Below are positions 29,166 to 48,784 of a DNA stretch of 64,000 bases, one piece after another. The translations under genes were made by a program, and so were the position numbers. The stretch is from Hyphococcus flavus. Its GTDB lineage: Bacteria > Pseudomonadota > Alphaproteobacteria > Caulobacterales > Parvularculaceae. The number at the start of each line of letters is the position of its first letter. The first letter of the stretch is position 1. The stretch covers positions 511,501-575,500 of the forward strand of contig NZ_CP118166.1 of assembly GCF_028748065.1 (NCBI RefSeq). Direction: 5' to 3'. The notes under the pieces are model-generated. The model was not told the DNA's origin, did no database searches, and saw only the letters and a program-made list of their open reading frames with translations.

Positions 29166-30286
29166 TGGCTCGAATAGAGACTGACCCAAAACAACGCATT
29201 AAACAGTCCGCCGCTGAAATTGGGTTTGACTGTGTAGGTTTTTCAAATGCGGATTTGCCCGGTACCGTGCGTGAACGCCTTATGCGGTTTCTGGAGCTCG
29301 GACGCCATGGAACAATGGAGTGGCTTGAAAACCGCGCCGAGCAGCGTACCCACCCGCAATCATTATGGCCCGATGCGCAGAGCGTCATCATGCTGGGTCT
29401 TAATTATGGTCCCGGTCATGATCCTCTTGAAGTGCTACAACAAAAATCGAATGGCGTTATTTCTGTCTACGCGCAAAACCGCGACTATCACGACTTGATC
29501 AAGAAGAAACTGAAACGGCTTGCCCGACAGATCGCCGAAGATCACAATGTAGAGGTCAAAGTTTTTGTGGATACGGCGCCGGTGATGGAAAAACCGCTTG
29601 CCGCCCGCGCCGGACTTGGCTGGCAGGGCAAACACACCAATCTTGTCTCACGCGAGTTTGGATCCTGGTTGTTCCTCGGTGCGATTTTCACAACATTAAA
29701 GTTGGACCGCGACTCGCCCGAGACGGATCATTGCGGTTCGTGCAGCAATTGTCTCGATATCTGCCCTACTGACGCATTTCCAGCGCCTTACCAGCTCGAT
29801 GCGCAGCGATGCATTTCTTATCTGACGATCGAGCACCCTGGCCCGATCCCGCACGAGTTCCGCAAGGCCATGGGCAATCGCATTTATGGTTGTGATGACT
29901 GCCTTGCCGTGTGCCCCTGGAATAAATTCGCCTCGGATGCAAAAGAAACCGCTCTGCATGCACGGGAGGAATTACGGGAGCCTGCGTTGAGTGAACTCGC
30001 GATACTTGACGATGCCGCTTTCAGAGCATTCTTTTCAGGTTCGCCAATCAAACGCACAGGCCGCGACCGTTTTATTCGAAACGTATTGATCGCGATCGGC
30101 AATTCCGGCGATGAGCGGCTGATCAATGCAGCAGAGACATTGCTGGAAGACGAAAGCCCAATTGTACGGGGCGCCGCCATATGGGCGTTGTCGCAACTAT
30201 CGCCGACTCGGCTTAACGAACTCCGGTCGAAGGCACATCATGAAACAGACGCGACTGTTTTAGACGAGTGGAGTCGCGCCAATTAG
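29165..30286 (+). CDS. queG: Epoxyqueuosine reductase QueG
   Basis: The 373-residue protein reduces epoxyqueuosine to queuosine in tRNA, the last step of the modification. The cobalamin-binding N-terminal part is followed by two [4Fe-4S] cluster motifs: [16 protein letters not shown] with a later CISY, and [13 protein letters not shown]. The C-terminus has HEAT-like repeats. ATG overlaps the fzlA stop by one base, and its stop overlaps that of the G8 protein by four bases. Confidence 0.95.
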
Positions 30287-33200
30287 ATATCGACGGTCAC
30301 GGTGACGACATTCTTGGTGAAGTTGCCGTGCTCGTCCTCTACCCAATACATGAACTTGTCCTCGCCTGTAAAATTCGGGTCTGCGAGGTACCGTAAGGTG
30401 CCGTCATCATTGACGAACACAGCGCCGTTATCAGGCGGGCAAATGCCGTCAATATTGATTTCGTCACCGTCCGGATCATAGTCATTAGCCAAAACATCAA
30501 TGTCGACATAACCGCCTTCTTCAACGGTTGCGAAATCTGCGCGCGCAACAGGCGCCTGGCTGTCGAGATCGAGAACCCCGTTATAGCGCGGCGGTTCAGG
30601 GAAATCGCTGAAATTACGCTCCCACTCCACGAACACGCTGACCTTGTCCACGACACCCGTGGCGCGGTCGGCGAAATACTGATCGATCACGGTGACTTTG
30701 CGTCCATCCGGCAGGGTCCAGTACCCTTCTTCCATAATGGCGCCCTGGATAGTGAAGTAGTCAAACCTGATGGGATCCCACGTTGGCGAAACCCGAGCAT
30801 CGCCAATCGAATCTGTTTTCCAGCCGGTCAAGTCGAGATAGCCTCTCGATTCAGGTGTCGGCGCAACGGGAATGTTATCAATATCCGAGTCGAACAGAAG
30901 CCTGCCAGCGGTCAGGTCACCCTCGGTCATGAACGTATCGCGTGCATCAAGATTGGCGAAGTTTGTAGTCGCGCCTTGAACATCAACATCAATGAAGACG
31001 TAGCCCCAGTTCCCGTCAAAAGGAAAGTTCAGGTTGGTTTCCGTCTTTGCCAGATGGACGCCTGTCGGGAACCCGACAATGCTTGCGCCATTTATGACAT
31101 TGTCGATGGAGTTCGGCCCGTATTCGATACCACGCCATGGCGTGTCCGCACCCGCCGACTGATCCGTAGCGAGAAGGTCAATGCCTTTGAGCGTATAGTG
31201 CGCCGTGTATTGCAGGTGGATGCCTGTACGAACCTCCCACCCGGTAAATCCTTCTATGACTGAGCGCACGTCATGCGCCTGTTCCGCACCCGCCTTCACG
31301 ACCTCCAGCCCGATCCCGACTGCAAATGCTTCGTTGTTCTGAAACTGTGAGATAGCCGGATAGTTGATGAAGGCTTCATCCACATAACGAAGCGATTCGG
31401 ACCAGTCCGCTGTCGCTGGGTCAACGGGAATAACGTCGTTCCCCCGTGACATGTACACAAACCCGTGGCCGCCCGGTACGCCAGCCGCAACATTGTCTAT
31501 TGCATCGACAAGACGTCCCTGAAACCAGAAGCCTGCCCCCGTACGGCCGAGATCAAACGCCAAGACATCTTCTTGTTGTTTCGCGCTATTGCGCACGCCA
31601 ATGGACTTAATCGAAATGTTATGAGACCAGCGACCCGTTTCATTCCCTGTCTCAGCCACGAACGCTGCACCAAATACGTCATAGGCCGCGTTATCGGTCA
31701 TAATCGCGTTTGAATCATGATGCACATAACCCCAGCCTGGCGATCCCCAAACGGCGTTGCCGACAATCATCGCTGGATCATCCAGTTCGGACACGCCTGC
31801 ACGGTGCAGGTGCAGTGAATAACGGGCTTTAATATTGGAATCCGCATCGACGCTGTTCAGGTCAGCAACATCAAAAGCGCGTTCCGACTTGTCTGTGCGC
31901 CCAAGTTCAAAGAACTCCGCATAACGCACATCAATGTCATCGGAATGCATAAACATCACATGGCCGCGCTGATGCACCGGCACGCCGTCAGCATTTTCCG
32001 TCAGGATCTGGACGTTGCGGGAATAGTTCGCAACATAGGCCTTCAGGTCGGCGCGCGGTCCCTCATGATCATACTGAAGCGGCCGATCAAAATGGATGAC
32101 ATTGCCGTCGATACGGGTGATGACCAACTCTTCGTCCTGGGAAGTGTCCGGGTGTGGCTCGCCCCAGTCGCCAGTGTCAGCTTCAGTCAAATGCGTGCCC
32201 GTCAGTACAAGCTTGTCGCCGACCTTCCACCCATCTGGCGGACTTTCCAAACTGAGCGAAGTATCGCCCGCCATGGGATCAGAAGCAACTTTAAGGAACG
32301 ATGTTTTCTCGGCGCCGTGAATTTGAACATCACCATGGCTGATGACGCCACGCGAGAACAGCATGGGATCCCATGAAGTGTCTATCGGGCCATTATCCGC
32401 AATTTGAATTATTGTTTCGACATCCGCTGCTACCGGATTGTCGACTGTGCCGATAGTCATTTTACCGCCCGGCGCGACAACAAGCGTGTCCACTTCCATG
32501 AACGTATTCGCATCGGTAGCAAAATCGAGAGAACCATCGACGCGCACAGTGAATAGCGAAACGGCGCTTTGTCCGTCATAGGCGACTTCAATGCCCTCAG
32601 GAATAAGAACTTGCGCGCCCTCCGCCGGCACTTCGCCACCTGCCCAGGTCGATGGATCAAACCAGGAGCCGTTTTTTACGGCAACGTGTGTCGCATCCGA
32701 AACGGGCACAAGGTTAAGAACCGCCATGTGTTCGGTAGCTTTTGCAGGATCGTCCGGGTGCGCATGACCGCCATGGCCACCGTGTCCGCCGCCATGGCCG
32801 GAATCTTCATGACCTCCGCCCTGCTGTTGGTGGTCTCCAACGTGGATCTCAACTTCCGCCCGACTTCTGTTGCCGTTGCTGTCGCGAACTTCGTATTGGA
32901 ACGTCGCTAAGCCCTCATGGCCGTCATGAGGCGTGAAATGGATTACGCCATCATGCAACATGACTGTTCCGTGCTGGGCGCCAAAAACTCTCACCAATTC
33001 AATTGTGGTGCCTGGCGCACGGGCATCATTTGCAAGCAAATCGTCAACAGCAATGTGAACCATTTCACTCGTACTTGCTGTAAAATTCGGATCATCCTCA
33101 GCCTGCACGGCCGTCACCGCGGCTGGCGGCGGCGTCACACCTCCTTGAGCTGGTTCATCGCCGCCGTTTGCGGGACCGCCATTTCCAGGGGCGCTGGCGA

Positions 33201-33414
33201 GAGGCCCCTCACCGCCGCCAATCGTCAAACACCCTTCAGCAGCAAGCAAGGGCGCAATCATACTCGCTTGCGTCATGGTTTTTTTGACTGAACGTCGCCG
33301 CGATCGCTTGCCAGGTTTTTCCGGCGTTTTCAAAAGCCCCGCTTCCGAAGCGTGCAAAATGTCGCGAAGATCAAGGGAAGAATAACTGGTCGAAACATCA
33401 GAACCCGAACGCAT
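30283..33414 (-). CDS. Large G8-domain beta-helix surface or secreted protein
   Basis: The 1043-residue protein has, in order: a basic N-terminus (residues 1-50), a Gly/Pro-rich linker, a cadherin/Ig-like repeat (about 105-192), a His/Gly-rich segment (194-221), a G8 domain (about 243-365, with [19 protein letters not shown]), a long parallel beta-helix region (about 370-850) and a C-terminal cadherin-like repeat (about 950-1043). G8 domains occur in CEMIP/TMEM2-like proteins and bacterial surface proteins. I see no classical signal peptide, RTX repeats or C-terminal sorting signal, so the export route is unknown. The His-rich stretch could bind metal. A substrate of sugar type is plausible. 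Confidence 0.85.
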
Positions 33415-33653: not shown

Positions 33654-35789
33654 TCATTTTTCGCTATTATCATTCGTAATGCCAAACAGGTTTGCAGCCG
33701 CTATGCCACGGCGTATGAACACCGCCTCATCTTCTTCCGGACGCCAACCGAGAACTGTTTTCGCTTTCTCATTTTGATAGGGCGACAACTGCGCCCGTGA
33801 TTTCCAGTCGCGATAGCTCGGCTTTGTAAGTCCTTGCTTCTTAGCAAGATATCGCTTCAGCACATACTTGAATATATCGACAACAAAATACGTCCAAATA
33901 GGAGTCGGCCGCGCACGTATTGTAACGCCATTGGCTTCACTGATCGCATCAAAATAGTCTCGCGAAGACAACATCGGATCACCGATCAAATTGAATGACT
34001 CACCAACTGCGTTTTCATGTTCGTATGCCAAAACGAGGCCGTCAGCCACATCGTCCACCAGAACAAAGGGCATCATATTGTCCCCGTCGCCCCATAACTT
34101 GCAGGTGGTGGCGTCGCGCCACATGGCGATGCCCCAATGCTGCAGCGGACCGCCTTCGCCAATCACAATGCCTGGCCGGGCTATCACCAATGGAAGGTTT
34201 TTCTCTCGTTCTAGTTTTTTGAGTTCTACTTCACACTTGGCCTTAGAGCGCGCGTAAAGATTGCGGCGTTCAAGGTCGTGGTCAAAGGACGTTGCTTCGT
34301 TGATCGGTCTATCGCTCCGGGACGCGTCGTATGAATCGATTGTACCGGTATAAACAAGACGCTGAACTCCAACAGCTATGCATGCTTCACCGATGCGCCT
34401 TGTTACTTTCACATCATTTTCAAGATACCCGTCCCAGGAGTTTTCCGTCGCCTTGGCTAAATGAAATACGCCGTCAACGCCTTGCATCGCAGTGCATAAA
34501 TCCTCATCAGATTTCAGATCGCCAGTAACAATAGAAATGCGACCGTCATCACGCCCCATGCCGCCGCCCGACCCACGGGACAAGACACAGACTTCGTAGC
34601 CTTTTCTAAACAAGACGTTGACCAGCGCACGACCGATAAAACCTGTGCCGCCGATTACAAGAATCGTTTTTCCATTTCGCGGCGGCGCTTCAGTCTCATT
34701 TTTTTTCGGCGCAACAAGTTTAGGCCGCGCCGCAGCGAGCGTATCTTCAATCATCGCAATTGTCTTGGCTCCAAGCCCTGCTGACAATCGCTGATCCATG
34801 GGTGCGTTATCTGTAAAAACGGCATAAAATCGATCAACTGCGCGCTGAATCGACAAACCGTATGGCGCTAGGCCGTTCAAGGATTTCAATTGGCGGATTG
34901 CATTTCCGGCACCGGCGCTGATCGACTGACTGGCCAGGGAAAGTTGGCGGCTTAATGGGCCGATGACGATATCGCCTGAAGGCGCCATTTCACGACGGTA
35001 TGTATCTTCTGCAAAATTATACTCCGCCAAGGCGCCAAGCCCGCGGAGACGTACGCTGCGGTTATCTGCGCCTTCCACAAGTGAAAGGTTTAAAGTCACC
35101 GACGTGTTGCCTGCAATCCCGCTTACCCTCCAGCTTTGGAAATGCGTAACCCCTCCCGGAAGCGTAATTGGGTTTCGAAATGCGACCTGAATCTCCTTCA
35201 GCTCGCCGAAGAGGTCGGCAACGAATGAAAATAAATGCGGCCCAAGCTCGAACAACAGGTTTTCCGGCTCACGTAACATCCAGAGATTGAACGGTCCAGA
35301 TCGCAACGGCGCCAGGGGAAATTGCCAGTTCGCTTCGAACGTATCGACGGGACCGATCAGCCTGCTTTCAAGGTCTGTTTTCAGCCGGTCATAAGACGGC
35401 AGCATCAGAAAGTTATGGTTTACGCCGACTTTGACACCGTTCTGATCGGCAAGCTGTTCTAACCGGCGGCATTCTTGCGATGTCAACGCAAACGGTTTTT
35501 CAATAAACGCCGAAACGCCCGCGCTAATGATTTTTTCCGCAGCATCGGCATGCAAGTTCGGCGGCGTCAGCACATGGATGCAATCGACGACCTTCGCATT
35601 CAGCATAGCCTCAAGCGAAGTAAAAACATGCGGCGCGCCGTAGCGGTCAGCAATGCTTTGGGCGGCGCCCTTTGAAAGATCGCAAACAGCTACAAGTTCA
35701 ACATTACGGGTGCGTTTTATCGCATCCGCATGCCAGCTTGAAATATACCCGGCGCCGAGCAATCCAACTCTGATCGTTGACTTTGTCAT
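33654..35789 (-). CDS. Gfo/Idh/MocA oxidoreductase fused to NAD-dependent epimerase
   Basis: The 711-residue protein joins two enzymes usually encoded separately. Residues 1-355 are a Gfo/Idh/MocA oxidoreductase with GLLGAGYISSWH and the catalytic EKPF lysine (residue 98). Residues 372-711 are an extended SDR epimerase with VIGGTGFIG at 378-386 and YARSK at 512-516. A basic linker joins them. Sugar-nucleotide modification is the likely role. The start overlaps the upstream GT2 stop by four bases, placing it in the glycosyltransferase operon. No ribosomal slip is needed, because one continuous frame covers both. Confidence 0.88.
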   Translation of the reverse strand: MTKSTIRVGLLGAGYISSWHADAIKRTRNVELVAVCDLSKGAAQSIADRYGAPHVFTSLEAMLNAKVVDCIHVLTPPNLHADAAEKIISAGVSAFIEKPFALTSQECRRLEQLADQNGVKVGVNHNFLMLPSYDRLKTDLESRLIGPVDTFEANWQFPLAPLRSGPFNLWMLREPENLLFELGPHLFSFVADLFGELKEIQVAFRNPITLPGGVTHFQSWRVSGIAGNTSVTLNLSLVEGADNRSVRLRGLGALAEYNFAEDTYRREMAPSGDIVIGPLSRQLSLASQSISAGAGNAIRQLKSLNGLAPYGLSIQRAVDRFYAVFTDNAPMDQRLSAGLGAKTIAMIEDTLAAARPKLVAPKKNETEAPPRNGKTILVIGGTGFIGRALVNVLFRKGYEVCVLSRGSGGGMGRDDGRISIVTGDLKSDEDLCTAMQGVDGVFHLAKATENSWDGYLENDVKVTRRIGEACIAVGVQRLVYTGTIDSYDASRSDRPINEATSFDHDLERRNLYARSKAKCEVELKKLEREKNLPLVIARPGIVIGEGGPLQHWGIAMWRDATTCKLWGDGDNMMPFVLVDDVADGLVLAYEHENAVGESFNLIGDPMLSSRDYFDAISEANGVTIRARPTPIWTYFVVDIFKYVLKRYLAKKQGLTKPSYRDWKSRAQLSPYQNEKAKTVLGWRPEEDEAVFIRRGIAAANLFGITNDNSEK

Positions 35790-36769
35790 TTATATTCAAC
35801 GATCCCGATGCTGCTTGCTGTTCGTTTTTTCCATTTGTATTTCAACATACCAATAAAATTTGGAACCTTTGCTAGTGTTAAAAAAAATGCACCGAGCGTG
35901 GCATGAGCCGGCGCTACGCCGCGCTTGATCAATCCGGTGCGCGTTCTAGCTAGCGACAGCGGGTAAAGAAGAAGCAAAAACAGGCTGAGGCCGTTAGTGA
36001 ATGGCGTACTGAGCAAGCTCACTGCCGGCAGAACGCCTCCCCATCCCAATGACCGTAGCCGCTCCGACCGGAAATACCCGTCATGCAGCTCTCCCAACTG
36101 AGCGAATGCGTGCCCCGCACGCTCCATTCGCCGCCACCATTGTCCAAACTTTCTGATGTCAGCGTCGTGAAGGCACATATCCTGATCGATCCGGACAATG
36201 CGCAAGCCGGCTGACCTGATGCGAATACAAAAATCATCGTCTTCTGCAGCGATGATGTTTTCACGAAATCCATCCACGGTCTGAAAAGCGTGCGCCCGCG
36301 TTACAAAAATCCCGCCGCATGCTTTGATATCGCCAACCGGCCCTCGCCATTCGATCTCGCACAGACGATTATATATGGTTGCATCTGGACGGCGCTCGCG
36401 ACAGCGGCCTGTCACAACGCCTATGGCTCGGTCGCTCATCAATTGGGAAATGGCAGCCTCGACGAAGCCGACAACCAGTTCGCAATCGCCATCGATAAAA
36501 AACACATTTTCCGTGTCCGGCCACTGCTCCTGCAAAGCAGCAAACCCAGCATTGCGTGCTCGCGCGGCGGTAAAAGCTTTGTCCTTATCTAAGACAACCA
36601 CATGAGCGCCGTTATTGCGCGCGAACTTAACACTGTCGTCCGTCGAACCGGAATCAACGTAAACAATTCGTTCACTCTCTTGCTTAAGAGATAACAGGCA
36701 CCGCTTGAAACGGTCGCCTTCGTTGCGTCCGATTGCAACAATTCCAACATGTGAAGACGGTTCATTCAC
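35786..36769 (-). CDS. GT2-family glycosyltransferase
   Basis: The 327-residue protein has the GT2 nucleotide-binding start (VGIVAIGRNEGDRF), the metal motif FIDGDCE and the acceptor-side AAEDDDFCIRIR, followed by C-terminal hydrophobic segments near residues 255-300. It probably adds a sugar to the lipid-linked repeat unit. The absence of a QXXRW motif suggests a non-processive enzyme. It is coupled on both sides by four-base overlaps. Confidence 0.88.
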   Translation of the reverse strand: MNEPSSHVGIVAIGRNEGDRFKRCLLSLKQESERIVYVDSGSTDDSVKFARNNGAHVVVLDKDKAFTAARARNAGFAALQEQWPDTENVFFIDGDCELVVGFVEAAISQLMSDRAIGVVTGRCRERRPDATIYNRLCEIEWRGPVGDIKACGGIFVTRAHAFQTVDGFRENIIAAEDDDFCIRIRSAGLRIVRIDQDMCLHDADIRKFGQWWRRMERAGHAFAQLGELHDGYFRSERLRSLGWGGVLPAVSLLSTPFTNGLSLFLLLLYPLSLARTRTGLIKRGVAPAHATLGAFFLTLAKVPNFIGMLKYKWKKRTASSIGIVEYK

Positions 36770-37965
36770 GCGCCCGGCTCCGCATCATCTTTATTGCGTG
36801 TTGGCGTCCATTGCTCGGCGCTCTTTCGCCCTTCCGCGCCAAACACGCGCAGCTTTGAAGCCAAAAACCCGATTGCACCGCCAAGAGCGGACGGCGGCAA
36901 CGTCTCGCGGCCAAAGGCGATCCAGCCGATCAGGACGGATAGGCCCGTCAGGATGATGCTCCAAAAAGCAAGCACGGCGGCGGCGGAAAATCCTGTGATC
37001 AGCCAGATGCCGAGACAGTAAAGCCAAATCAAGAGCAACAGAACGATGAAGACCGTCAGTGGCGGAATTAACAAATCCACCGCCGCGCCAATCATGCGGA
37101 TATTTGCACCTTTTATTCCTTCGGCAACAAGCGACAGGAAAGACCTTGCGGAATAACGAAGTGAACCAAGCGACCATCGCGCGTTCTGGCGGGCAAGCGC
37201 CTCTTCGTTTTCCGGAAACTCGCTTGTGACTACAGCCTCTCGCGCTAGCAACGGCGCGGCGCCATTGCGAACAAACTGAAAGGTAAGCGCGAGATCCTCG
37301 ACTATCTCTCCTGAAGCAAACTCAACCTGCTCAACGTCACGCCAGGGCGCAGCAAAACCTGACCCCGTAAAGCGGGTCAGGTCGAACATCTTTTGCAGAC
37401 CGCTCATGCGAACAAGATTGATGAAGACCCAAGCAAATGCAGCAACTTGCAATCGGGGACTGGCTCCAATTGGCGCTTTCATCAAATAAAGAGCCTGCAC
37501 GGGCCGTTGCGCGGCTGATGCGCGAGAACTTATACGCTGCAACGCGCCCTCTTCGAACAGACAGTCCGCATCTGCAAAAACAGCAACCGCCGGGGGTGCA
37601 GCGCGCAACACATCGACAGCGTATTGCAGTGCATAGCCCTTGCCGCGTTTATCAGGCTCGTCACGGACCAGCACCTCCGCGTCATGCTTCATTGCGACTT
37701 CAGCAGTATTATCTTCGCAATTATCCGCAACAACGATGAGCCGGTCACTTGCCCGCAGGCTCGATTTGATATTCTCAATCGATGCGCTGATCGTATTGGC
37801 TTCATTATGAGCAGGCATGATGACGGCGATGGCGCCCGCTTCCTCATCAATTTCCCGATTGCTTTGCACGAACAAAGACGCGATCACTTCGGCCAGCAGA
37901 AAAGCGGCGAGAAATAACGCCGCCGTCGCCACTAGAACGGCGATTATGATCAGTAGCAAACCCAT
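36766..37965 (-). CDS. Processive-type GT2 glycosyltransferase
   Basis: The 399-residue protein has an N-terminal membrane helix, an MPAHNE start, FADADC (DXD), the EDLALTFQ acidic pair and QNARW (QXXRW), all diagnostic of processive synthases such as chitin or hyaluronan synthase, plus three or four C-terminal helices. It may build or extend a homopolymer or add one sugar repeatedly. The product is unknown. It overlaps the preceding GT2 gene by four bases. Confidence 0.88.
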   Translation of the reverse strand: MGLLLIIIAVLVATAALFLAAFLLAEVIASLFVQSNREIDEEAGAIAVIMPAHNEANTISASIENIKSSLRASDRLIVVADNCEDNTAEVAMKHDAEVLVRDEPDKRGKGYALQYAVDVLRAAPPAVAVFADADCLFEEGALQRISSRASAAQRPVQALYLMKAPIGASPRLQVAAFAWVFINLVRMSGLQKMFDLTRFTGSGFAAPWRDVEQVEFASGEIVEDLALTFQFVRNGAAPLLAREAVVTSEFPENEEALARQNARWSLGSLRYSARSFLSLVAEGIKGANIRMIGAAVDLLIPPLTVFIVLLLLIWLYCLGIWLITGFSAAAVLAFWSIILTGLSVLIGWIAFGRETLPPSALGGAIGFLASKLRVFGAEGRKSAEQWTPTRNKDDAEPGA

Positions 37966-37977: not shown

Positions 37978-40107
37978 TTAAGGCCGTTCGCCGCCTAACC
38001 AGTAGCGCATGGCGCCGAAAAATTCCGGAAATCGCCCAAAAACGGCGTAAAACCCGCGACGCCAGGAAGCTGGCTTGAAAAGGCCACGCCGAAAGATACT
38101 GGCGAAATATTGCAGCAGATATACCGCCAACCCGACGGCAGCCACACCGCCTGCAGCCATTCCCGGCAATGTCATAGGTGAGAACATTGGAACCACCAGT
38201 GCGGCAAGCCCGGCGCCCGCTGCGACAGTTAACGGAAAGACACAGCCCCAAACAACCGCCTGAACCGTTGCGCCGACACCGTGTCGTTCTGGCGGCCCGC
38301 CATGCAACGACATAGCGTATGCATTGTCGAAACCGCGTTGTCGGCTTCGGCGCCACCAACGACCGATCGTGGGGCGTCGCGTTTCCTCCACCGACATTTC
38401 TTCTTCGATACGCCAGATATGCGCGCCGCGTCTTCGTTGCCGAATGCAAAGATCTTCCATGTCGCGAGCAATAAGGTCGCCGCGAAAGCCGCCCGCAGCT
38501 TCAAAAGCAGAAGCGCGGACCAACGCTGCGCCAGTTGATGTCATCGCAATTTCACCAGGCGCTTCGTTTTGCTTTTGCTCCTGGACTGTTGTGAACTCCC
38601 GGCGGCGACCATGATGATCACGTACTGCACCTTCGATCACGGCGACTTCTGGACGACGCTCAAGAAATTTTTCCCCCGCGGGTATCCAGTCAGGGTCGAG
38701 GACGACGCCTGCGTCAAGAAACTGCACATATTTAAGATGGGGGGCAATTTTTTTCAGCTGCCTGTACCCGGCGTTGCGCGCTCTACCGCCTGTCTGCAAT
38801 CCTTTTCCGGCATTCTCCACAATCGTCGCGCCAGCCTTATTTGCCGCCGCGGCAGCGTCAGGCATGGCGACAAGCGGCGCGAAAACAACAGCACGACCGT
38901 CCGCGATGGAACGTATGGTCGCTTCGGGAGACACTTTCGGATCTGCGCTGACAATCACTGCACCTGTGACAGCCGACGGCGTTTCTTTACGCACCGGTTC
39001 CGGCGCGTTACGCGGCGCAGCTTCTGTTTTGACAGCAGTTGCAGTCGTTGGAGCTGAATGCTGGACAGGCGGGGGCGCCACGGCGGCGGCAGGTTTTATT
39101 TGCGGCTCAATGTCAGCTTTCGTTTTAACCGCCGTCTCTCGCACCCGCTCAAATTCAGTGGCTCTGGGCTCTGGCGTTCGTTCACGCTCAGTCACGACTC
39201 TTTTTTTTGGCGCCTCATCTTCTTCAACAAACGCGTCGGGCCCCTGTTTTGAAGCAGACGGTATCGGCGGCGCGCTCGCATCATCCGAAGCAATCCCGAA
39301 TACGCCATAAGCTTTTTTATCTCGGATAACGTTGCGGATCGTTTCAACGCCCACAACTAAATCCTCAGCGGAAAAAGCGTAAACAAGCGCCGTATCAGCA
39401 ATGACGTTTATGACGCGAGGCACGCCGCGGGATTGCGCAGCGATAAGGTCGAGAGCACGTTCGGTGAATACGCGCCGCCGACAGCCAGCGATAGACAGTC
39501 GCGTTTCAATATAAGCTTGCACTTCATCCCGGCTGAGCGGCGTCAGGTGAAAATCAGAACCGACCCTTTGCGTAAGCTGCAACAGTTCCGGCTTGTTTAA
39601 AACGTCCTTCAATTGCGGCTGCCCGACAAGGATCAACTGCAGAAGCTGATCTTTGCCCGCGTTTATGTTCGACAACAGCCGCAGCTCTTCGAGCATATCT
39701 ATGGAAAGATTCTGCGCCTCATCAATGATGAGAACGATACGCTTTCCTTTCGAATACTCACCGATGAAAAAATTCTGTAATTGCGCGAACAAACCCACAT
39801 GCGAGCTGTCGTCAAAGGGCTGCCCGAAGGACATCAGCACCCAGCTCAAGAGATCGCCGCGTCCAGCCTGAACGTTCGATAAAAGCGCAACTGTATGGCT
39901 GTCGGAAAGCTGATCAAGGAGGCGGTGAATAAGCGTTGTCTTCCCGCAGCCGACCTCTCCGGTTACGACCGAGATGCCTGCGTGATTAAGCACGCCATAT
40001 TCAAGCATCGCATAGGCAAGCCTGTGCGTCCGGCCCCAATAAAGAAAAGACGGGTCGGGCTGAATCGAAAACGGTTTTTCCGAAAGTCCGAAAAACTGTT
40101 CATACAT
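37978..40107 (-). CDS. ExeA-type ATPase fused to a degenerate GT2 domain
   Basis: The 709-residue protein has an N-terminal AAA ATPase (residues 1-270) of the exosortase-associated ExeA/TIGR03015 type, starting MYEQFFGLSEKPFSIQPDPSF, with Walker A GEVGCGKTT (50-58) and Walker B VLIIDEAQNL (125-134). A Glu/Pro/Ala-rich linker runs from 275 to 380. Residues 381-605 form a GT2-like domain and two or three membrane helices follow. In that domain the DXD site reads FLDAG (463-467), so the second Asp is gone, while the acceptor ED pair remains at 551-552. The gene lies 12 bases upstream of the two GT2 genes. I know of ATPases of this kind as stand-alone proteins, so the fusion is unusual. Confidence 0.85.
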   Translation of the reverse strand: MYEQFFGLSEKPFSIQPDPSFLYWGRTHRLAYAMLEYGVLNHAGISVVTGEVGCGKTTLIHRLLDQLSDSHTVALLSNVQAGRGDLLSWVLMSFGQPFDDSSHVGLFAQLQNFFIGEYSKGKRIVLIIDEAQNLSIDMLEELRLLSNINAGKDQLLQLILVGQPQLKDVLNKPELLQLTQRVGSDFHLTPLSRDEVQAYIETRLSIAGCRRRVFTERALDLIAAQSRGVPRVINVIADTALVYAFSAEDLVVGVETIRNVIRDKKAYGVFGIASDDASAPPIPSASKQGPDAFVEEDEAPKKRVVTERERTPEPRATEFERVRETAVKTKADIEPQIKPAAAVAPPPVQHSAPTTATAVKTEAAPRNAPEPVRKETPSAVTGAVIVSADPKVSPEATIRSIADGRAVVFAPLVAMPDAAAAANKAGATIVENAGKGLQTGGRARNAGYRQLKKIAPHLKYVQFLDAGVVLDPDWIPAGEKFLERRPEVAVIEGAVRDHHGRRREFTTVQEQKQNEAPGEIAMTSTGAALVRASAFEAAGGFRGDLIARDMEDLCIRQRRRGAHIWRIEEEMSVEETRRPTIGRWWRRSRQRGFDNAYAMSLHGGPPERHGVGATVQAVVWGCVFPLTVAAGAGLAALVVPMFSPMTLPGMAAGGVAAVGLAVYLLQYFASIFRRGLFKPASWRRGFYAVFGRFPEFFGAMRYWLGGERP

Positions 40108-40176: not shown

Positions 40177-42591
40177 TTACATCCTGTCCAACAGCGCTTG
40201 TACTTCATTCCTGAAAATAAAGTCCGCTCCGCCGAGCCGCAAAGCCTGTTCAAGGTTGGTGCGGGCCGCATCCTCATCGCCACTGGCGAACTGCGCCGCG
40301 CCGAGATGGTAACGCATCTCCGCGCTTTCCTCGATTTCTTCAACCGCCAGGGACAAATATTCAACCGCACGATCATAGTCACCTGCGCGATAGTAAGCCC
40401 AACCTACCGTGTCGCGGTAAAAAGGATTTTCAAGATCCTCGATAGTCTTGGCGATCTCAAGCGCACGAGCGATGCTGTCCTGATCCAGCCGAAGATCGCT
40501 GGAAAGACTGACAAAGTTATTGGCGATGATGCGATCCTGCGGACGTTCTTCAATCAGATCAGAATAAATCGCCAGCGCATCTTGCCGCTCGCCGCGATTA
40601 AGCAGGACGTCTGCTTTGAAAACCCGCATGGCGTAGTTATCAGGCGCCGCTTCGATCCCGCGATCAATCAGCGCCGCAGCGTCATCGACCCGTCCTTGAC
40701 CGAGATAGTGGCGATACAACAGCTCATACGCTTCCGGCTGTTCTGGTGAGCGCGACACCGCCTCTTCAAGGCTTGCCTCATAGGATTCGCGATCTTCACG
40801 GGCGGCATGAACCCGCGCCATCATGATGCGTGCCTGATAGTTGTCGGGGTCGGCGCCAAGCATACGATCAAGCAAGGCTTGTGCTTCGTCCAGGCGATCC
40901 GTTCTGAGATAAGCGGTTACGAGCGATGACAGTGGACGGCTTTCAAGTGGCGCAACTTCATCCCGCGCGGTTAGAGTCTCAATGACTGAATCATAATCAC
41001 CAAGCCCGAAATAGGCTGCAGACTTTACATTCGCGGCGAGTTCATCCTGCGTTTCGATCTGTTCGATCATGCCGGCGACCTCTTCCGCGCCGCGCCAGTC
41101 CTGTCGCGCCAAACGGATAGTCGCAAGCAACCTCAAGTTTTCCAAATGCCCTGGATGCGCCGCCAGCGAGTCCACCAGGACTTCTTCAGCGCGTTCGGTA
41201 TTCCGGCGGCGCAAGAGAAATCTCGAAAACTGCTGCGCTATCCGCGCCTGACGATCGCTGCTTTCATAAGCTTTTGCGAACTCAGCCTGGGCAAAGCTGA
41301 AATTTTCCTGCTTTTCAAAAGCCGTCGCCATAAGAACCATGGCGTCATATTCGTCGGGACTATTGTCGAGCGCGGTGCGCAAATTGACAATGGCCTGGTC
41401 AAACTCTTCGTCATCAATCTGCAAGGCGGCACGCTTCATCAGCGCATCCGTATTCCGCTCATCTACTTCCAGAATTTCATCAATGAGCGCGATCGCGCTC
41501 TCGCGATCCCCCTCGCCCAGTAACAGGACAGAAATCTTGTTTTTTGCCTTTAACGCGACGTCCTGATCGTCACCGTCCGCAAGCTGGTCCAGCAGCGCCC
41601 GAGCCCTGCCTGGCTCGTCTTCTTCGATGAGAAAATCGACCATGGCGAATTTGAGATCATCGTTGTCTGGATTTGCATCGATAAACTCCTGAAGCTGCGC
41701 TTCGGCTGCCGCAGTACCCTGAACACGATTGGCCAGCCTGACGACGTTCAGTTTCGCGTTGAGGTTTTCCGGTTCAAGGTCGACGATCGCGCGGAACTGT
41801 TCACGTGCAAGTTCCATCTCGTTCCGCTTTACCAATTCCCCGGCATAGACACGGCGATAGGCAGGCTCTTCAGGGAAAAGTTCAATCAGCCCTGCATAAG
41901 CTTCCAGCGTTTCATCGTTGCGTCCTAGCGTCTGAAGAATTTGAATGCGCAACAATTGAAGAACTGCAATCTGCGGATCGACTTCCAACGCTTTGTTGAT
42001 TTCTTCAAGCGCGCCGTTTCTGTCGCCGTTTTGAAACTTATCCGTGGCAAGAACTGTTACCGCCTCGGGGTTTGCCGGATCAGAAGCAACAACGCCGCGG
42101 GCGATCTCTACAGCGCCGGCATTGTCGCCGATCTTGAGAAGCACTGCAGCCTTCAGCGCCCGCGCATCTGGATCATCAGCGTTAATTTCCAGCGCATTCT
42201 CTGCCGACTCAAGGGCGGCGGTTTCATCGCTGCCGACAAGATAGAGCTTGCCAAGCTTGACATGCGATTCGATCTGGCTTGGGTCCAGCCGGACGATGTT
42301 CTGCAACATCTGGAACATCGCCTGATAATCTTTTCGCTGCTCCGCGATTTCCGAAAGACCGATCAGCGAGGGGACGTGCTCCTCATTGATCTTAAGCGCG
42401 TTCCGAAACTGGATATACGCTTTGGGCAGATCGCCGGCCTCGAGAAACTCAGCGCCTTCCTGACTGTAGCGCTGCACTTTCTCCTCAGGAGATGCACACG
42501 CCGCCGCCAGCGCCAGCGCCGATACCGCGAGCAATCGCGCCATGCGGCCGCGCCGCGCCTTGATTCCATTACCGCCGTTCGTCACCGTCAT
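40177..42591 (-). CDS. PrsT-type TPR-repeat lipoprotein of exosortase systems
   Basis: The product is about 804 residues from the ATG at 42591, which has AAGGG about 7 bases upstream. An N-terminal lipoprotein signal with the lipobox LAAAC is followed by an almost uninterrupted array of tetratricopeptide repeats, from AYIQFRNALKINEEHVPSL to the C-terminus. This matches the PrsT (TIGR02917) family that accompanies exosortase and exopolysaccharide loci. The family role is thought to be an envelope scaffold for export, which remains inferred. A second in-frame ATG at 42606 is possible. Confidence 0.9.
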   Translation of the reverse strand: MTVTNGGNGIKARRGRMARLLAVSALALAAACASPEEKVQRYSQEGAEFLEAGDLPKAYIQFRNALKINEEHVPSLIGLSEIAEQRKDYQAMFQMLQNIVRLDPSQIESHVKLGKLYLVGSDETAALESAENALEINADDPDARALKAAVLLKIGDNAGAVEIARGVVASDPANPEAVTVLATDKFQNGDRNGALEEINKALEVDPQIAVLQLLRIQILQTLGRNDETLEAYAGLIELFPEEPAYRRVYAGELVKRNEMELAREQFRAIVDLEPENLNAKLNVVRLANRVQGTAAAEAQLQEFIDANPDNDDLKFAMVDFLIEEDEPGRARALLDQLADGDDQDVALKAKNKISVLLLGEGDRESAIALIDEILEVDERNTDALMKRAALQIDDEEFDQAIVNLRTALDNSPDEYDAMVLMATAFEKQENFSFAQAEFAKAYESSDRQARIAQQFSRFLLRRRNTERAEEVLVDSLAAHPGHLENLRLLATIRLARQDWRGAEEVAGMIEQIETQDELAANVKSAAYFGLGDYDSVIETLTARDEVAPLESRPLSSLVTAYLRTDRLDEAQALLDRMLGADPDNYQARIMMARVHAAREDRESYEASLEEAVSRSPEQPEAYELLYRHYLGQGRVDDAAALIDRGIEAAPDNYAMRVFKADVLLNRGERQDALAIYSDLIEERPQDRIIANNFVSLSSDLRLDQDSIARALEIAKTIEDLENPFYRDTVGWAYYRAGDYDRAVEYLSLAVEEIEESAEMRYHLGAAQFASGDEDAARTNLEQALRLGGADFIFRNEVQALLDRM

Positions 42592-42656
42592 GGCTCCACC
42601 CTTCATTACTCGCGCGCTTCGTTTGCCATTATTGCCAGCGCCTTACAATGCATGTT

Positions 42657-43889
42657 TCAGACCGCCGCCTGGCGCGATGTCGCGCTGTTAACCGATTCCG
42701 CCGCGCATTCCGGCGCGACGGGATAATTCATGCCATTCGCCTTGAATATCGCCCGCTGCGCAGGCTTTGCGTTCTCAAGCGTGATGGCCTGTGGAAGTTC
42801 GCCGAGATGTTTTTCCAGCATGAGCGTCAGGCCCAGAAACGCCCGGTCGAAGGATGAAACCTCCGTCATATTCAACCGGACGGGACGGCCCGTTGCCGCC
42901 GCCGCACGATATGCCTCCCGCACCGGGCGCAAGCCGCCATGCACCAGATCGCCAGTCAACTTGACGACCGTTACAGCACTTTCATTCACTGCTTTCGCGC
43001 CCGCGTGCTGCCCGCCCTTGCCCCGCGCACGGCCAAACTGCGGCGCCATAGCTGTCGTCATCAGTCCGATGAGCCCCAGACCATCCTTGAAGTAGCGTCG
43101 CCACAGGGCCGGCTCCTCTTTTATGCGCCACACCCATTCAAGCCCTGCCCGCTGCATCCAGCGCGGCGCACGCGCGATGCCGCCGCTCGTGAAATCAACA
43201 ACCGCGCCGAGGTGTGCGATAACGGGCGCAGTTAATTTTTCACGATTGCGTTCGATCCACGCTTGCCCCTTGGCAGCGCCCAGCGCGACGACGACAAAAT
43301 CAGGCGCCGCTTTATTGACTGTTTCAATAATATCATCGGCGCTCATGCTATCGACATTCCCGTGCCCGGGGTTGAGCGATCCGACCGCTTCTATGCCGCT
43401 CTCTTCTTTATTGACCCGCTCGACGGCCGCTTTTGCCGCCCCGTCGCGCCCGCCGAAGAAAAAGACCTTTGTCTTGCGTCCCGCAAATGGAGGACGCCGA
43501 CGTATGGCTTCGAAAACATCCGAACCAGCAACGCGCGAAGTGACGGGTACGCCGAGCAGTTTGGCCATCAACACCAGCGGGGCGCCATCGACCAGGCTGA
43601 GATCAGCGTTGAGAATTTCCTGCCGCGCCGCGCTAGACCTGCGCGCCCGGATCAACCAGTTTACATTCGGCGTTACGAAGGAGAGTTTGCGCTTTGCCCG
43701 CGAAGCGGCATCGATAGCGGCCACAGCCTGATCAACATTGCAAATATCGACTGGCAATCCCATGAGACACCAGACATCGCGGTCGAAATCATCCCTGCGC
43801 AAAGCAGCCACACCCGCGCCGCCGTGTTCGGGCTTCTCGGCATCGGCGTATTTGTTCGTATCAGAAATTTCGGGAAGCGGCTCTGCCAT
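42657..43889 (-). CDS. WecG/TagA/CpsF glycosyltransferase fused to STAS-like domain
   Basis: The 410-residue protein has a WecG/TagA domain over residues 40-280 (FVTPNVNWLIRARR, ADLSLVDGAPLV, a HLGAVVDFTSGG motif and RAPRWMQRAGLEWVWR), which in this family transfers a ManNAc- or related sugar to a lipid-linked acceptor. Residues 310-400 resemble a STAS/anti-anti-sigma domain (LNMTEVSSFDRAFLGLTLMLEKHL). Such fusions exist in exosortase-linked clusters. The STAS part may regulate or tether the enzyme. A GAGAG ribosome binding site precedes ATG. Confidence 0.88.
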   Translation of the reverse strand: MAEPLPEISDTNKYADAEKPEHGGAGVAALRRDDFDRDVWCLMGLPVDICNVDQAVAAIDAASRAKRKLSFVTPNVNWLIRARRSSAARQEILNADLSLVDGAPLVLMAKLLGVPVTSRVAGSDVFEAIRRRPPFAGRKTKVFFFGGRDGAAKAAVERVNKEESGIEAVGSLNPGHGNVDSMSADDIIETVNKAAPDFVVVALGAAKGQAWIERNREKLTAPVIAHLGAVVDFTSGGIARAPRWMQRAGLEWVWRIKEEPALWRRYFKDGLGLIGLMTTAMAPQFGRARGKGGQHAGAKAVNESAVTVVKLTGDLVHGGLRPVREAYRAAAATGRPVRLNMTEVSSFDRAFLGLTLMLEKHLGELPQAITLENAKPAQRAIFKANGMNYPVAPECAAESVNSATSRQAAV

Positions 43890-44320
43890 GATCTCTCAGG
43901 TCAACGTTTTGCTTTGGAGACCTGTCCGCAGCGTTTCAGTTCGACACTAAAAACACCATAAACAAAGTCTTGCTGCATTATGCGCAATTATAAGAGCAAA
44001 CATGAGGCCAAATTCACCCTGAACGTGTTTTTAACCATGTCTTGCGCCGAAATTAGGCGAAAAACAAGCAAGCAACCCACGCCGAGGCAAAGCAAGGCAT
44101 TGTTTTTTCTTATGTTTTAAAAAGCTGCCCCGCCCGAGCGACTCTTTTGTCGAAGAACGGCCGATTGCATCGATCACTCAAACAGCTCGCCTGTTCTTTA
44201 CTTCCCCTGAAAAGCCCGCGATTGATCCCCGGCGCCGATTTTGCTGTTTTGTAATGTCCGGCAACCATGTCTCGCCCGCTAGCGAACGGCATGTCCCTTC
44301 GAAGAGAGAATTCAGCTTTT
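43890..44320. other. Intergenic region between divergent wecG-like and exosortase genes
   Basis: This 431-base gap holds no recognisable gene. It must contain promoters for the two divergent units. One TATAAT on the minus strand (43987-43992) is visible but has only a weak -35 at 17 bases spacing. AT-rich tracts are present around 44100. An antisense frame at 44110-44373 overlaps the exosortase start and has no support. Confidence 0.5.
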
Positions 44321-45949
44321 ATGACAGACAAGCCCGCCGAAAATACCCCGCCCAAGAGACAGGGTTTTGTCATCCGACCAGTCTATGTTGTGGGGGCGCT
44401 TGCCGCGATCATTCTGTTTGCGTTTTTTGGCGGCATTGAAAATCTGTTCAAACGCTGGGGCGAACAACAGGAATTAAGTCACGGTTATTTTCTGCCGCTA
44501 ATCGCCGGCTGGATGCTGTGGTCGCGCCGCGAAGCGCTTGAAGCGAGCATCGGCAGGCCGGAGCTGTTAGGGCTTGCAGGCGTCGTCATTTCAGTGATCG
44601 TCCTGATTCTGTCGGAGCTGACGGTTACATCGCTAATGATTTTCCAGCAGCTCGCGATGCTTACGCTGTTTTCGTCACTCGTCCTTGCATTGGGCGGCTG
44701 GAGCCTGTTCTGGCTCAGCCTGCTGCCAATCGGGTTCATGTTGTTCATGGTGCCGCCGCCTTACTGGGCGATTACAGTCTTGTCGCAGCAGTTTCAGTTC
44801 TGGTCCTCTCAACTTGGCGTCGCCATGATTGAAGCGATGGGCATACCGGTGCTACTGACCGGCAATATTATCGACCTTGGCGACTACAAATTGCAGGTCG
44901 CCGAAGCCTGTAGCGGGCTGCGCTATCTGTTCCCGTTTTTAAGTCTTGGCTTCCTGGCGGCGTATTTGTTCAACGCGCCAATGTGGCAACGCGCGATCGT
45001 TTTTCTCGCCACGATCCCAATCACGATCTTGATGAACAGCGTGCGCATCGCGGTCACTGGCATTCTTGTCCAGCAATTCGGTACGGAACACGCCGAAGGT
45101 TTTATTCACCTATTCGAAGGGTGGGTTGTTTTTCTTTTCTGCCTGGCTTTGCTGTTTGGCGTTATCGTCGTTCTGGCGCGCATATCCGGGCGGAAAAATG
45201 TTGGCGATCTGCTTGTCATGCCGGATGTCGCCGCAAAAAAGCCGGCGAAAGAATGGAACAAGTCTGAATTCTTTCGTAATGGCTTCATCTCGCTGGCGCT
45301 CATCGCGGCGGCTGGCGTCTATGTGCACTTTGGCGTTTCAAACATTTTAAAAGTGCCAGAAAGGGTAGATCTCGCGAGCCTTCCATACGAATTTCCGGGA
45401 TGGCGCAGCGATATCGAGGAAATAGATGCGCAAACAATCGAAGTTCTTGGCGCGGACGATTTCCTTGTCACCAACATGACAAGCCCGGACGGCGAACTAT
45501 TTAACCTCTATATCGCTTACCTCAACATGCAGCGTCATGGACATAGCTGGCATTCGCCGCGCCAATGCATTCCCGGCGGAGGCTGGCAGATCACGCAACA
45601 TGATATTGCGCCGATAACGCTCGAGGATGGCGAAAGTTTTCACTACAACCGCATCATCATCGAAAATCGCGGACAGCGGCAGTTGCTGTATTATTGGTAC
45701 GACCAGCGCGGGCGTAAAATCGCCAACGAGTTCATTATGAAGTTTCTGCTCGTTTTTGACGCGGTGAACATGCGCCGGACTGATGGCGCGATGATCAGGA
45801 TCATGACACCCATTCAAAGCAGCGAAACTATTGCAGATGCTGACGCGCGGCTTCTGGGCTATATGAGAAGCCTGCAACCGAAATTGCCGAAATACGTACC
45901 GCCAGCAGGTGTGCCGGCAACAGAGGAATTCGACCCAGACGAATACTAG
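44321..45949 (+). CDS. xrtD: Exosortase-EpsI fusion (XrtD-like)
   Basis: About 542 residues from the ATG at 44321. The N-terminal part has eight or so membrane helices and the exosortase catalytic residues: Cys in AEACSGLRYLFPF, Arg in MNSVRIAVTG and His in GFIHLFEGWVVF. The C-terminal third is an EpsI domain, with the segment LNMQRHGHSWHSPRQCIPG. Exosortases cleave and anchor proteins carrying C-terminal sorting signals. The closest subgroup by memory is XrtD (VPLPA-CTERM); XrtA is the alternative. In-frame ATGs at 44267 and 44291 are possible starts. No target protein with a CTERM signal is visible in the window. Confidence 0.88.
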   Translation: MTDKPAENTPPKRQGFVIRPVYVVGALAAIILFAFFGGIENLFKRWGEQQELSHGYFLPLIAGWMLWSRREALEASIGRPELLGLAGVVISVIVLILSELTVTSLMIFQQLAMLTLFSSLVLALGGWSLFWLSLLPIGFMLFMVPPPYWAITVLSQQFQFWSSQLGVAMIEAMGIPVLLTGNIIDLGDYKLQVAEACSGLRYLFPFLSLGFLAAYLFNAPMWQRAIVFLATIPITILMNSVRIAVTGILVQQFGTEHAEGFIHLFEGWVVFLFCLALLFGVIVVLARISGRKNVGDLLVMPDVAAKKPAKEWNKSEFFRNGFISLALIAAAGVYVHFGVSNILKVPERVDLASLPYEFPGWRSDIEEIDAQTIEVLGADDFLVTNMTSPDGELFNLYIAYLNMQRHGHSWHSPRQCIPGGGWQITQHDIAPITLEDGESFHYNRIIIENRGQRQLLYYWYDQRGRKIANEFIMKFLLVFDAVNMRRTDGAMIRIMTPIQSSETIADADARLLGYMRSLQPKLPKYVPPAGVPATEEFDPDEY

Positions 45950-47161: not shown

Positions 47162-48784
47162 ATGGGTGACGAGTTTACACTTGAAGACGTGCTGATCATT
47201 CTGCAGCGGCGGTTCCTCTATTTTCTGATCCCTGCTTTGCTAATTGCGCCCATCGGCGTCATTACCGTGATGCTGCTGCCGGCAAAATATTCGGCGCAAG
47301 GCACGATCCTGGTTGAATCTCAGCAAATCCCCACAGATTTTGTTCGCTCCACCATAAACGCCTACGCGCAGGAACGCATTCAAACGATCCGTCAGCGCGT
47401 GATGACCCGCAACCGGCTTCTGGAAGTGGCTGATGAATATGAGCTGTTTCCCCGATCGCTTGGCCTTTCTGAGACAGAGCGGGTCAAGAGAATGCGAAAC
47501 AATCTGCGTGTGGACCTGATCACCACCACCGCCAACCGCGGATCAGGCGATGGCACGATCGCCTTCACCGTCGCTTACACGGATCAGGATCCCCGCAAAG
47601 CCTACCTCGTCGCCAATAAGTTCATGACGTTGTTCCTCGACGAAGACGTGCGTTCGCGCACGGCCGGCGCGTCTAATACGACGGAATTTTTCGAACAGGA
47701 AACCGGACGTCTCCGCAGGACGGTCGCTGAACTCGAAAATCAGATTTCCGAATATAAAACCACTAACTCCGGCGCGCTGCCGGAGCAGTTGAATACGAAC
47801 CTCGATATGCTGGAACGGCGTCAGCGTGAGTTGTCGACTGCACAATCGACGATTTCCCAATTGGAAGAAGAACGCCGCTTCCTCGAAAATCAGCTCATCA
47901 GCGGCAGCGCCGGCGACAACAGCATGTCAGCCGAGCTTTCGCGCCTTGAATCGGAACTTGCGCGGCTGCGCGCGACTTATCGCGACTCCTACCCGGAAGT
48001 CGTGGCGAAACGCGATGAAATCGCCGCGCTCAGACGCCAGATGGCGCCAAGTGAAGAAATCAGACGGCTGCGCCGCGCACTCAGCGATTCCGAGGACGCG
48101 CTCGCTGATATCGAGAATACTGAAGAGCCTGATCCTGACGCGCTTGCCCAGGCAGAGGCGGCAGTAAACGACGCCCGGACGGAATTAAGCGAGCGCATTG
48201 AGCAGGAAACAAGGCGCGGATCGGACGACATCGCTGGCGTTCAGATTGAAGGCCGGATCGCCGTTGTCGAAAACCGTATTAAAATGCTGAACAAGCAGAT
48301 TGAAGACGCGCAGGAAAACATCACGAACCTCGAAACACGGATTGCACGCACACCTGAGGTTGAGCGCGGTCTTGCAGCGCTAACCCGCGATTACGAAAAT
48401 ATGTTTCAGGAGTATCAGGATATCCTGACCAAGCAGCAAGACGCGCAATTGGCGGAAAATCTTGAAGAAAGTCAGCAGACAGAAAAATTTTCCATTCTCG
48501 AGCCAGCGCTGAACCCTGAAAGACCGTCTAGCCCTGATCGCGCGAAGCTGATCTTCGCCGCTCTTTTTGCCGCGCTTGGCATTGGCGGGGCGACGGCTAT
48601 GGGTGTTGAACTGGTCAAAGCGCGGCTTCGCGGGCGAAATCACATTGCGAATGTCCTCGACGGGCAACCGATCGCAGTCATTCCATATTTTAGCAGCGAG
48701 CATGACCGCAGACCGCGAGTGCCCTTCATAGGACGCAAATCCAAAAAATCCCGAAAAAGTAAAAGAAAACGCACCGCTGCGTGA
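47162..48784 (+). CDS. Chain-length determinant protein (exosortase-linked Wzz family)
   Basis: The 540-residue protein has two membrane helices (residues about 20-40 and 460-480) flanking a long periplasmic coiled coil, with Asp/Glu/Arg-rich heptads from about residue 160 to 420. The LVESQQIPTDFVRSTINAYAQ segment at 50-75 is typical of the TIGR03007 family that accompanies exosortase loci. It sets polymer length and works with the P-loop protein encoded next. A small perfect hairpin (47117-47130) lies 31 bases before ATG. Confidence 0.92.
   Translation: MGDEFTLEDVLIILQRRFLYFLIPALLIAPIGVITVMLLPAKYSAQGTILVESQQIPTDFVRSTINAYAQERIQTIRQRVMTRNRLLEVADEYELFPRSLGLSETERVKRMRNNLRVDLITTTANRGSGDGTIAFTVAYTDQDPRKAYLVANKFMTLFLDEDVRSRTAGASNTTEFFEQETGRLRRTVAELENQISEYKTTNSGALPEQLNTNLDMLERRQRELSTAQSTISQLEEERRFLENQLISGSAGDNSMSAELSRLESELARLRATYRDSYPEVVAKRDEIAALRRQMAPSEEIRRLRRALSDSEDALADIENTEEPDPDALAQAEAAVNDARTELSERIEQETRRGSDDIAGVQIEGRIAVVENRIKMLNKQIEDAQENITNLETRIARTPEVERGLAALTRDYENMFQEYQDILTKQQDAQLAENLEESQQTEKFSILEPALNPERPSSPDRAKLIFAALFAALGIGGATAMGVELVKARLRGRNHIANVLDGQPIAVIPYFSSEHDRRPRVPFIGRKSKKSRKSKRKRTAA

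Follow-up and report, generated by a model that had tools for sequence, protein, structure and literature searches.

According to a report on Sphingomonas sp. LM7 (PMC11340318), the promonan gene cluster of this strain carries genes for Wza, Wzz, a CpsD-type kinase and WecG, together with a gene for an AAA+ ATPase, PrmE (BXU08_RS00370), located before the Wzz-type and CpsD-type genes. Deletion of prmE abolished promonan and gave an exopolysaccharide (EPS)-negative phenotype, and the authors present PrmE as an ATPase with no earlier link to polysaccharide assembly (PMC11340318). ExeA/GspA of type II secretion is an AAA+ ATPase whose C-terminal part varies; PMC9239104 describes it as thought to help seat the secretin through the peptidoglycan. 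The profile family TIGR03015 covers ATPases associated with XrtA/PEP-CTERM systems, whose members are found near chain-length and kinase genes. Here we analyze a gene of Hyphococcus flavus in which an ATPase related to this family is fused to a glycosyltransferase (GT) domain that has lost the usual catalytic residues. The gene lies in a stretch of 64,000 nt (the window; NZ_CP118166.1, forward-strand positions 511,501-575,500), and coordinates below are window positions unless a locus name precedes them. A search of openly licensed papers gave no description of such an ATPase-GT fusion, which is not to claim its absence from print; the words "ATPase" and "ExeA" are both absent from the main text of PMC1569441.

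One frame for an ATPase and a pseudo-glycosyltransferase

The fusion gene (37978..40107, minus strand) starts with ATG and encodes a protein of 709 aa composed of an AAA+ ATPase, a linker, a pseudo-GT domain and membrane helices, as delineated from the open reading frame, Pfam, NCBIfam and AlphaFold2 (AF2). An earlier reading of the window from its letters alone (the sequence-only reading) had described a continuous 709-codon frame without giving a strand; this frame is on the minus strand, stops interrupting the plus strand when it is read from 37978. Pfam assigned residues 42-170 to AAA_22 (97.9 bits) and residues 460-663 to Glyco_trans_2_3 (31.3 bits, cutoff 27). The proposed fusion of an ATPase with a GT-like domain and membrane helices is confirmed. 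The frame is likewise open in orthologues from many genomes and is therefore neither a chance frame nor an assembly artefact; a sequencing or frame error was ruled out for the same reason, one related locus (L025) being interrupted close to an ambiguous base. Nor does it read as a phage or defence protein, the best PHROGs and PADLOC stretches falling in the ATPase part and the linker.

The ATPase half (residues 1-270; 39298..40107, minus strand) matches TIGR03015 at residues 1-263 (profile positions 1-265 of 269); the homology thus runs along the whole profile and includes both Walker motifs. The score of 279.6 bits (282.8 in a six-frame search) does not reach the curated cutoff of 324.5, and the window protein further differs from other members in sitting in a clade of fused ATPases and in carrying the pseudo-GT. 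The Walker A motif GEVGCGKTT (residues 50-58; 39934..39960, minus strand) and the Walker B motif VLIIDE (residues 125-130; 39718..39735, minus strand) are where the sequence-only reading had placed them. Across 28 aligned sequences, that of the window among them, G50, E51 and G53-T58 do not vary, and G53, G55, K56 and T57 as well as D129 and E130 are invariant among 33 ATPases.

Sequence profiles against PDB sequences gave nothing useful (no match at 0.01 for the whole protein; one chance match, E 0.56, for the GT half), and folds were therefore compared by structure. Because the full-length AF2 model, built with 28 aligned sequences, was poor in the ATPase half, this half was modelled separately with the 33 ATPases, which gave a predicted AAA+ fold of the initiator/TnsC-like type with a mean predicted local distance difference test score (pLDDT) of 89.2. 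The model aligned with ORC (7jgr_G; Z 21.2, root-mean-square deviation (rmsd) 2.9, 249 residues aligned), Cdc6 (1fnn_A; Z 20.9, rmsd 3.4, 254 aligned), TnsC (7plh_A; Z 20.1, rmsd 3.4, 245 aligned) and MuB (8xvb_A; Z 19.7, rmsd 3.2, 230 aligned), and all of the best 50 structure matches listed were ORC/Cdc6 (OCCM included), TnsC, MuB or clamp-loader entries. TnsC and MuB are ATP-dependent matchmakers on DNA. The predicted fold is shared with them and with Orc1/Cdc6, all of which act on DNA, and by itself the modelled likeness shows no matchmaker role for the window ATPase.

The label "ExeA-type" given in the sequence-only reading holds as a statement of relatedness and no further: neither a peptidoglycan-binding domain (PF01471) nor a C39-like match was found in the fusion protein with Pfam at E 0.001, the TIGR03015 score falls short of its cutoff, and the gene is in a polysaccharide locus, unlike ExeA/GspA. 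The companion statement that such ATPases are usually stand-alone needs qualification, since some are fused to a WecB-like, PG_binding or OmpA domain. One gene of the same ATPase family (L179:3809-6025), for instance, carries an OmpA domain at the C-terminus. No GT domain was detected among 17 proteins of this ATPase family scanned with Pfam. A second TIGR03015-family ATPase, scoring above the cutoff, is encoded about 100 kb away in the same genome, close to a gene resembling a polysaccharide chain-length determinant (PCP; 22.8% identity, E 2e-9); the remaining genes around this second ATPase were judged by reading.

A predicted disordered linker of about 105 residues (271-377; 38977..39297, minus strand) joins the two halves, with pLDDT below 50 at residues 272-377. 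Within this otherwise variable segment, a pattern of G, one or two residues, D/E, A/S and F recurs in 20 of 28 rows; in the window it reads GPDAF (residues 289-293; 39229..39243, minus strand) and is possibly a docking peptide.

The GT half is modelled with confidence: from residue 381 on, 29 of 33 ten-residue blocks have a mean pLDDT of at least 86 and the other four 75-80. Residues 378-605 (38293..38976, minus strand) form the putative GT-A-fold pseudo-GT domain. They are followed by two predicted membrane helices (residues 611-674; 38086..38277, minus strand), which AF2 places at 611-642 and 648-674 and which are hydrophobic by reading. The GT-half model matched PcManGT (6yv7_B; Z 20.9, rmsd 3.4, 280 residues aligned over model residues 376-707), a Leptospira GT (6p61_B; Z 20.1, rmsd 2.5, 179 aligned) and SpsA (1h7l; Z 18.8, rmsd 2.6, 188 aligned). 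The sequence-only reading had offered the lack of a GT-A fold at residues 381-605 as a ground for its own rejection; this objection falls away because the GT half is predicted to adopt that fold. The likeness to PcManGT and other membrane-anchored GT2 enzymes thus covers the GT-A fold plus the following helices, whereas the donor Asp, the DXD and the catalytic base of those enzymes are missing here.

Loss of catalytic residues and purifying selection in the GT half

We compared the active-site columns of fused and stand-alone GTs after dropping 13 duplicate rows (34 fused and 32 stand-alone rows), taking the roles of the three positions to be those known from GT2 enzymes. In the window, P411 (38875..38877, minus strand) occupies the position of the nucleotide-binding Asp, in a segment that reads YVDSGS in relatives. 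D465-A466-G467 (38707..38715, minus strand) stands where DXD is expected, which agrees with the DAG noted in the sequence-only reading, and M550 (38458..38460, minus strand) is at the catalytic-base position, which holds Asp or Glu in each of the 32 unfused relatives. According to the alignment column table, the nucleotide-binding Asp is kept in none of the 33 fused rows having the column and in all 32 stand-alone rows; all three features together are found in 0/34 fused rows vs 32/32 stand-alone ones. Judged by these residues, the GT half is probably non-catalytic, a conclusion that is well supported and that had been given only as a possibility. Other parts of the domain are retained. It aligns in frame in 27 orthologues with 39-64% identity to the window and many invariant residues, and the RARN segment, presumably located by the donor site, is conserved (G441, R442, N445 and A446 are invariant in 28 sequences).

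Ratios of nonsynonymous to synonymous substitution rates (dN/dS) were computed for nine chosen close pairs with a Nei-Gojobori script; they come without standard errors, some pairs share members, and dS is near saturation for L022/L027. The GT half (residues 378-600) gave values of 0.04-0.19 and the ATPase half 0.005-0.045. For the linker, values could be computed in 8 of 9 pairs; they were 0.18-0.46 and in each of these pairs the highest of four regions. The GT half is under purifying selection, and recent decay is ruled out by its low dN/dS. Loss of the catalytic residues and purifying selection, taken together, imply that the GT half is conserved for something besides ordinary catalysis. 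A precedent exists in plant xylan synthesis, where the catalytic residues of IRX9 are dispensable and a structural role has been proposed (PMC4132061); that protein, likewise a GT with a non-catalytic role, is a plant GT43 whose abstract mentions no ATPase part.

Distribution, gene neighbourhood and origin

A search with the whole protein gave matches in 37 of 60 genomes, including the window's own and ATPase-only ones, and the GT-half profile matched 43 of 62 genomes of the family at 1e-10 or better. From frame lengths and search results, we read the fusion as present in 34 of these 62: 23/28 genomes of the window's genus, 8/9 of genus g6, 2/3 of g3 and the single genome of g9. Among the 34, one was seen from the GT side alone at a contig end (G063), one is cut at residue 521 (G004) and one is broken near an ambiguous base (G027). 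In all but G004 (33/34), the search also found a free-standing protein related to the fused GT half. In a class-wide sample of 385 genomes with the window's own, no fusion was found among the 384 others, at most five candidates being scored per genome, and four of them have a stand-alone GT relative. A collection of named records yielded 61 loci; 29 of them (L021-L049) hold both halves at least partly, and L050 and L051 end too early to tell. Many of these loci are on the same contigs as the genomes above. The nearest named records are Marinicaulis and Parvularculaceae, and the fusion is present in two cultured relatives, Marinicaulis flavus and Amphiplicatus metriothermophilus.

The fusion gene belongs to a minus-strand series ordered WecG-STAS, PrsT, fusion, GT2a, GT2b and dehydrogenase-epimerase. 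The first encodes a WecG/TagA glycosyltransferase with a C-terminal STAS domain (42657..43889; Pfam), and directly upstream of the fusion comes a PrsT-like TPR lipoprotein (40177..42606; TIGR02917 263.5 bits, cutoff 312.2; lipobox by reading). The EpsU-like GT2 glycosyltransferase GT2a (36766..37965; Pfam and NCBIfam) starts 12 bp downstream of the fusion and is overlapped by 4 bp by GT2b (35786..36769), a GT2 with intact motifs, which a Gfo/Idh/MocA dehydrogenase fused to an NAD-dependent epimerase (33654..35789; Pfam) overlaps by 4 bp in turn. Fusions make up three of these six genes, since the dehydrogenase and the epimerase form one protein. On the plus strand are an exosortase XrtD of the VPLPA-CTERM type (44267..45949; TIGR04152 488.8 bits, above the cutoff of 400), which adjoins the locus, a PCP (47162..48784; TIGR03007 219.7 bits, cutoff 278.85) and a CpsD-like P-loop kinase (48819..49625; CbiA/ParA/AAA_31 matches, named a kinase by context). 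A protein with G8, CEMIP beta-helix and Big_9 domains (30283..33414; Pfam), which we take to resemble the animal hyaluronan-degrading CEMIP family, is encoded beside the polysaccharide operon and recurs in 23 of 31 related loci.

These 31 loci (L021-L051), many of which end before all genes are visible, were used to count conserved neighbours. PrsT lies directly upstream of the fusion in all 31, and WecG-STAS precedes PrsT in 28, the remaining three ending too soon. WecG-STAS is of similar length in these 28 loci, matching over 87-100%. GT2a follows the fusion in 27 loci: it is adjacent in 12 and set apart by inserted sequence, which was read for four loci, in 15. The remaining four end too soon. 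In Amphiplicatus metriothermophilus, GT2a and GT2b form one 753-aa frame (L045:11395-13653), which lends some support to a physical GT complex. Among stand-alone relatives of the ATPase, the order ATPase, PCP, kinase was seen in 5 of 9 alphaproteobacterial loci (L169, L170, L171, L175 and L176 of L168-L176), and the order PCP, kinase, ATPase in L052-L055.

In a tree of 64 GT rows, all fused GT halves fell on one side of a branch separating them from stand-alone relatives, with a Shimodaira-Hasegawa-like approximate likelihood ratio test (SH-aLRT) value of 100; the tree is quick, unrooted and supported by SH-aLRT only, and L121 is a long branch. A similarly quick ATPase tree (SH-aLRT only, several long branches flagged) placed 11 fused ATPases, chosen from 28 rows, in one clade beside stand-alone alphaproteobacterial and gammaproteobacterial ATPases. 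It did not include L190, L227, L228 or any g3 or g9 fusion; its SA/EXT labels measure only residues beyond the match, and L144 (the L178 gene), labelled EXT since its duplicate had been dropped, belongs with the epimerase fusions described below. A single origin of the pseudo-GT fusion fits both the GT branch and the single clade of fused ATPases. Within the window, the fused GT half has its paralogue in GT2b (27% identity, E 3e-22).

Two further genera of the family carry an unfused ATPase beside a PrsT gene. L228 keeps the window's order of WecG-STAS, PrsT and ATPase (a 290-aa open frame), and L227:8156-11634 has a PrsT-like TPR gene and a stand-alone ATPase (a 283-aa open frame) as a pair. 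Unrelated genes flank the L227 pair, those for M48 peptidase/DNA polymerase I on one side and those for shikimate dehydrogenase/kinase-PPPase on the other. Because the ATPase is unfused beside PrsT in both loci, the PrsT-ATPase pair may be the older core to which the GT half was added later; alternatively, the GT half may have been lost in these genera.

Proposed role, rival explanations and a second fusion type

We tentatively propose, giving it somewhat less than an even chance, that the fusion is an exopolysaccharide-assembly AAA+ ATPase, an ATP-dependent matchmaker, flexibly tethered to a catalytically dead, membrane-anchored GT2 adaptor for the live GTs of the locus. Sequence and predicted fold make it very probable that the ATPase half binds ATP, hydrolyses it and oligomerises like AAA+ proteins of the initiator clade. 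It may work with the TPR lipoprotein and the chain-length and export machinery to assemble or gate polysaccharide export, a role suggested by the conserved neighbours, the ExeA/GspA precedent and PrmE. The pseudo-GT half would no longer transfer sugar. Since its GT-A fold, RARN segment and membrane helices have been retained, this half would most likely dock on a live GT2 of the pathway or on the lipid-linked product of that enzyme, GT2a being favoured as a constant neighbour, which GT2b is not. Docking would hold the ATPase motor at the site of repeating-unit synthesis.

Several observations weigh against this proposal. Partners beyond GT2a are not constant, GT2b being present in only 15 of the 27 loci reaching GT2a (the fused copy of L045 counted, and some loci ending early) and the dehydrogenase-epimerase in eight. 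The PCP and kinase genes are on the opposite strand, outside the operon of the fusion. No more than 9 of the 31 loci have XrtD next to the fusion; it is about 500 kb away in genome G060 and was not found in the fusion genomes G005 and G035, both of which are incomplete. Strict dependence on XrtD was rejected, XrtD occurring without the fusion in 7/10 genomes of g2 and in the one genome of g8. PrmE is an AAA+ ATPase gene product of an exopolysaccharide cluster like the window protein, but the accessible part of its report (PMC11340318) names it only an AAA+ family ATPase and mentions no fusion; its presumed membership of the window's ATPase family is read from gene order. Two of the three signs of inactivity are also incomplete: D-x-D is kept in 7/34 fused rows (32/32 stand-alone), which makes it the weakest sign, and the acidic base residue in 1/33 (32/32 stand-alone), this single row, L029, which has an Asp, lying in the GT tree among rows without the base. 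Some GTs, moreover, act without a DXD, PMC3961637 describing GT6 as metal-independent.

These last points are what would speak for a GT half that still transfers sugar through atypical residues. That explanation is improbable in our view, given that the nucleotide-binding Asp is gone from every fused row having its column, that no fused row unites the three features and that the 32 stand-alone relatives keep them all. A dead GT could instead serve as a sensor or switch, binding a nucleotide sugar or lipid-linked glycan and toggling the ATPase so that export runs only when precursors are present. The conserved RARN segment would suit such a role, and so would the WecB-like partner of related ATPases, likewise derived from a nucleotide-sugar enzyme, which would make ligand binding a feature that the partners share; yet the Asp expected to bind the nucleotide is the very residue lost in all 33 rows, and we regard the sensor as unlikely, if still worth serious consideration. 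The two predicted membrane helices at the end of the GT half are compatible with a plain tether for a soluble ATPase, with no specific partner or ligand. With a length of about 280-320 aa, stand-alone ATPases can hardly accommodate a membrane part, and other family members bear C-terminal OmpA or PG_binding domains. A simple helix would be enough for this purpose, however, and selection at dN/dS 0.04-0.19 on a globular domain with many invariant residues makes a mere anchor rather improbable, only a little less so than a surviving enzyme. That the GT half is a decaying relic or an assembly artefact has next to nothing in its favour except the lost catalytic residues, for it is in frame in 27 aligned orthologues and in 34 genomes, with dN/dS far below 1.

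The matchmaker proposal gains a possible parallel from ATPases of the same family fused to a WecB-like domain. They were found in Thiomonas delicata and three proteobacterial metagenome-assembled genomes (L059:6507-8738, L060:1149-3395, L061:7668-9917 and L063:8001-10211) and in genome G685 (L178:2017-4053 and L190). In all six proteins, some of which are near-identical, VEAGLR has lost its Glu (to Asp in five and to Gly in one), the AHRREN-type His is absent from its column (one row has a gap there) and the N-terminal GTRPE/GARPN word is gone. All three features are kept in 31/31 stand-alone relatives, namely L186 and the best 30 loci of a longer match list, with L192 and L194 excluded. We presume the catalytic roles of these residues to be those usually given for WecB. 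The genome of L063 also encodes an intact WecB (L186, 383 bits). In the ATPase tree, the pseudo-GT fusions (24-row clade, 99) and the epimerase fusions (35-row clade, 99) are separate, and the two fusion types are best read as independent.

A more general and undescribed design might therefore be considered, in which a matchmaker AAA+ ATPase has repeatedly acquired a dead nucleotide-sugar enzyme as a domain for sensing or docking. In Parvularculaceae-like alphaproteobacteria this would be a pseudo-GT2, in Thiomonas and other proteobacteria a pseudo-WecB epimerase, and the resulting pseudoenzyme-motor protein would couple precursor synthesis to export. We hold this generalisation to be doubtful. 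Glu to Asp is a mild change, which weakens it, and three of the WecB-like fusion rows have a His one column after the lost one. The stand-alone NeuC-like proteins L192 and L194 (61.8 and 61.7 bits to wecB), which from their sequences we read as another epimerase type, also have neither the VEAGLR nor the HRREN word; absence of these words thus marks loss of WecB-type catalysis only.

If PrmE does belong to the window's ATPase family, such natural fusions would hint at the contacts of this ATPase, with a GT fold in one lineage and a nucleotide-sugar-enzyme fold in another. The role of that ATPase would thereby become directly testable, and the fusion would add a bacterial, motor-linked example to the glycosyltransferase pseudoenzymes.

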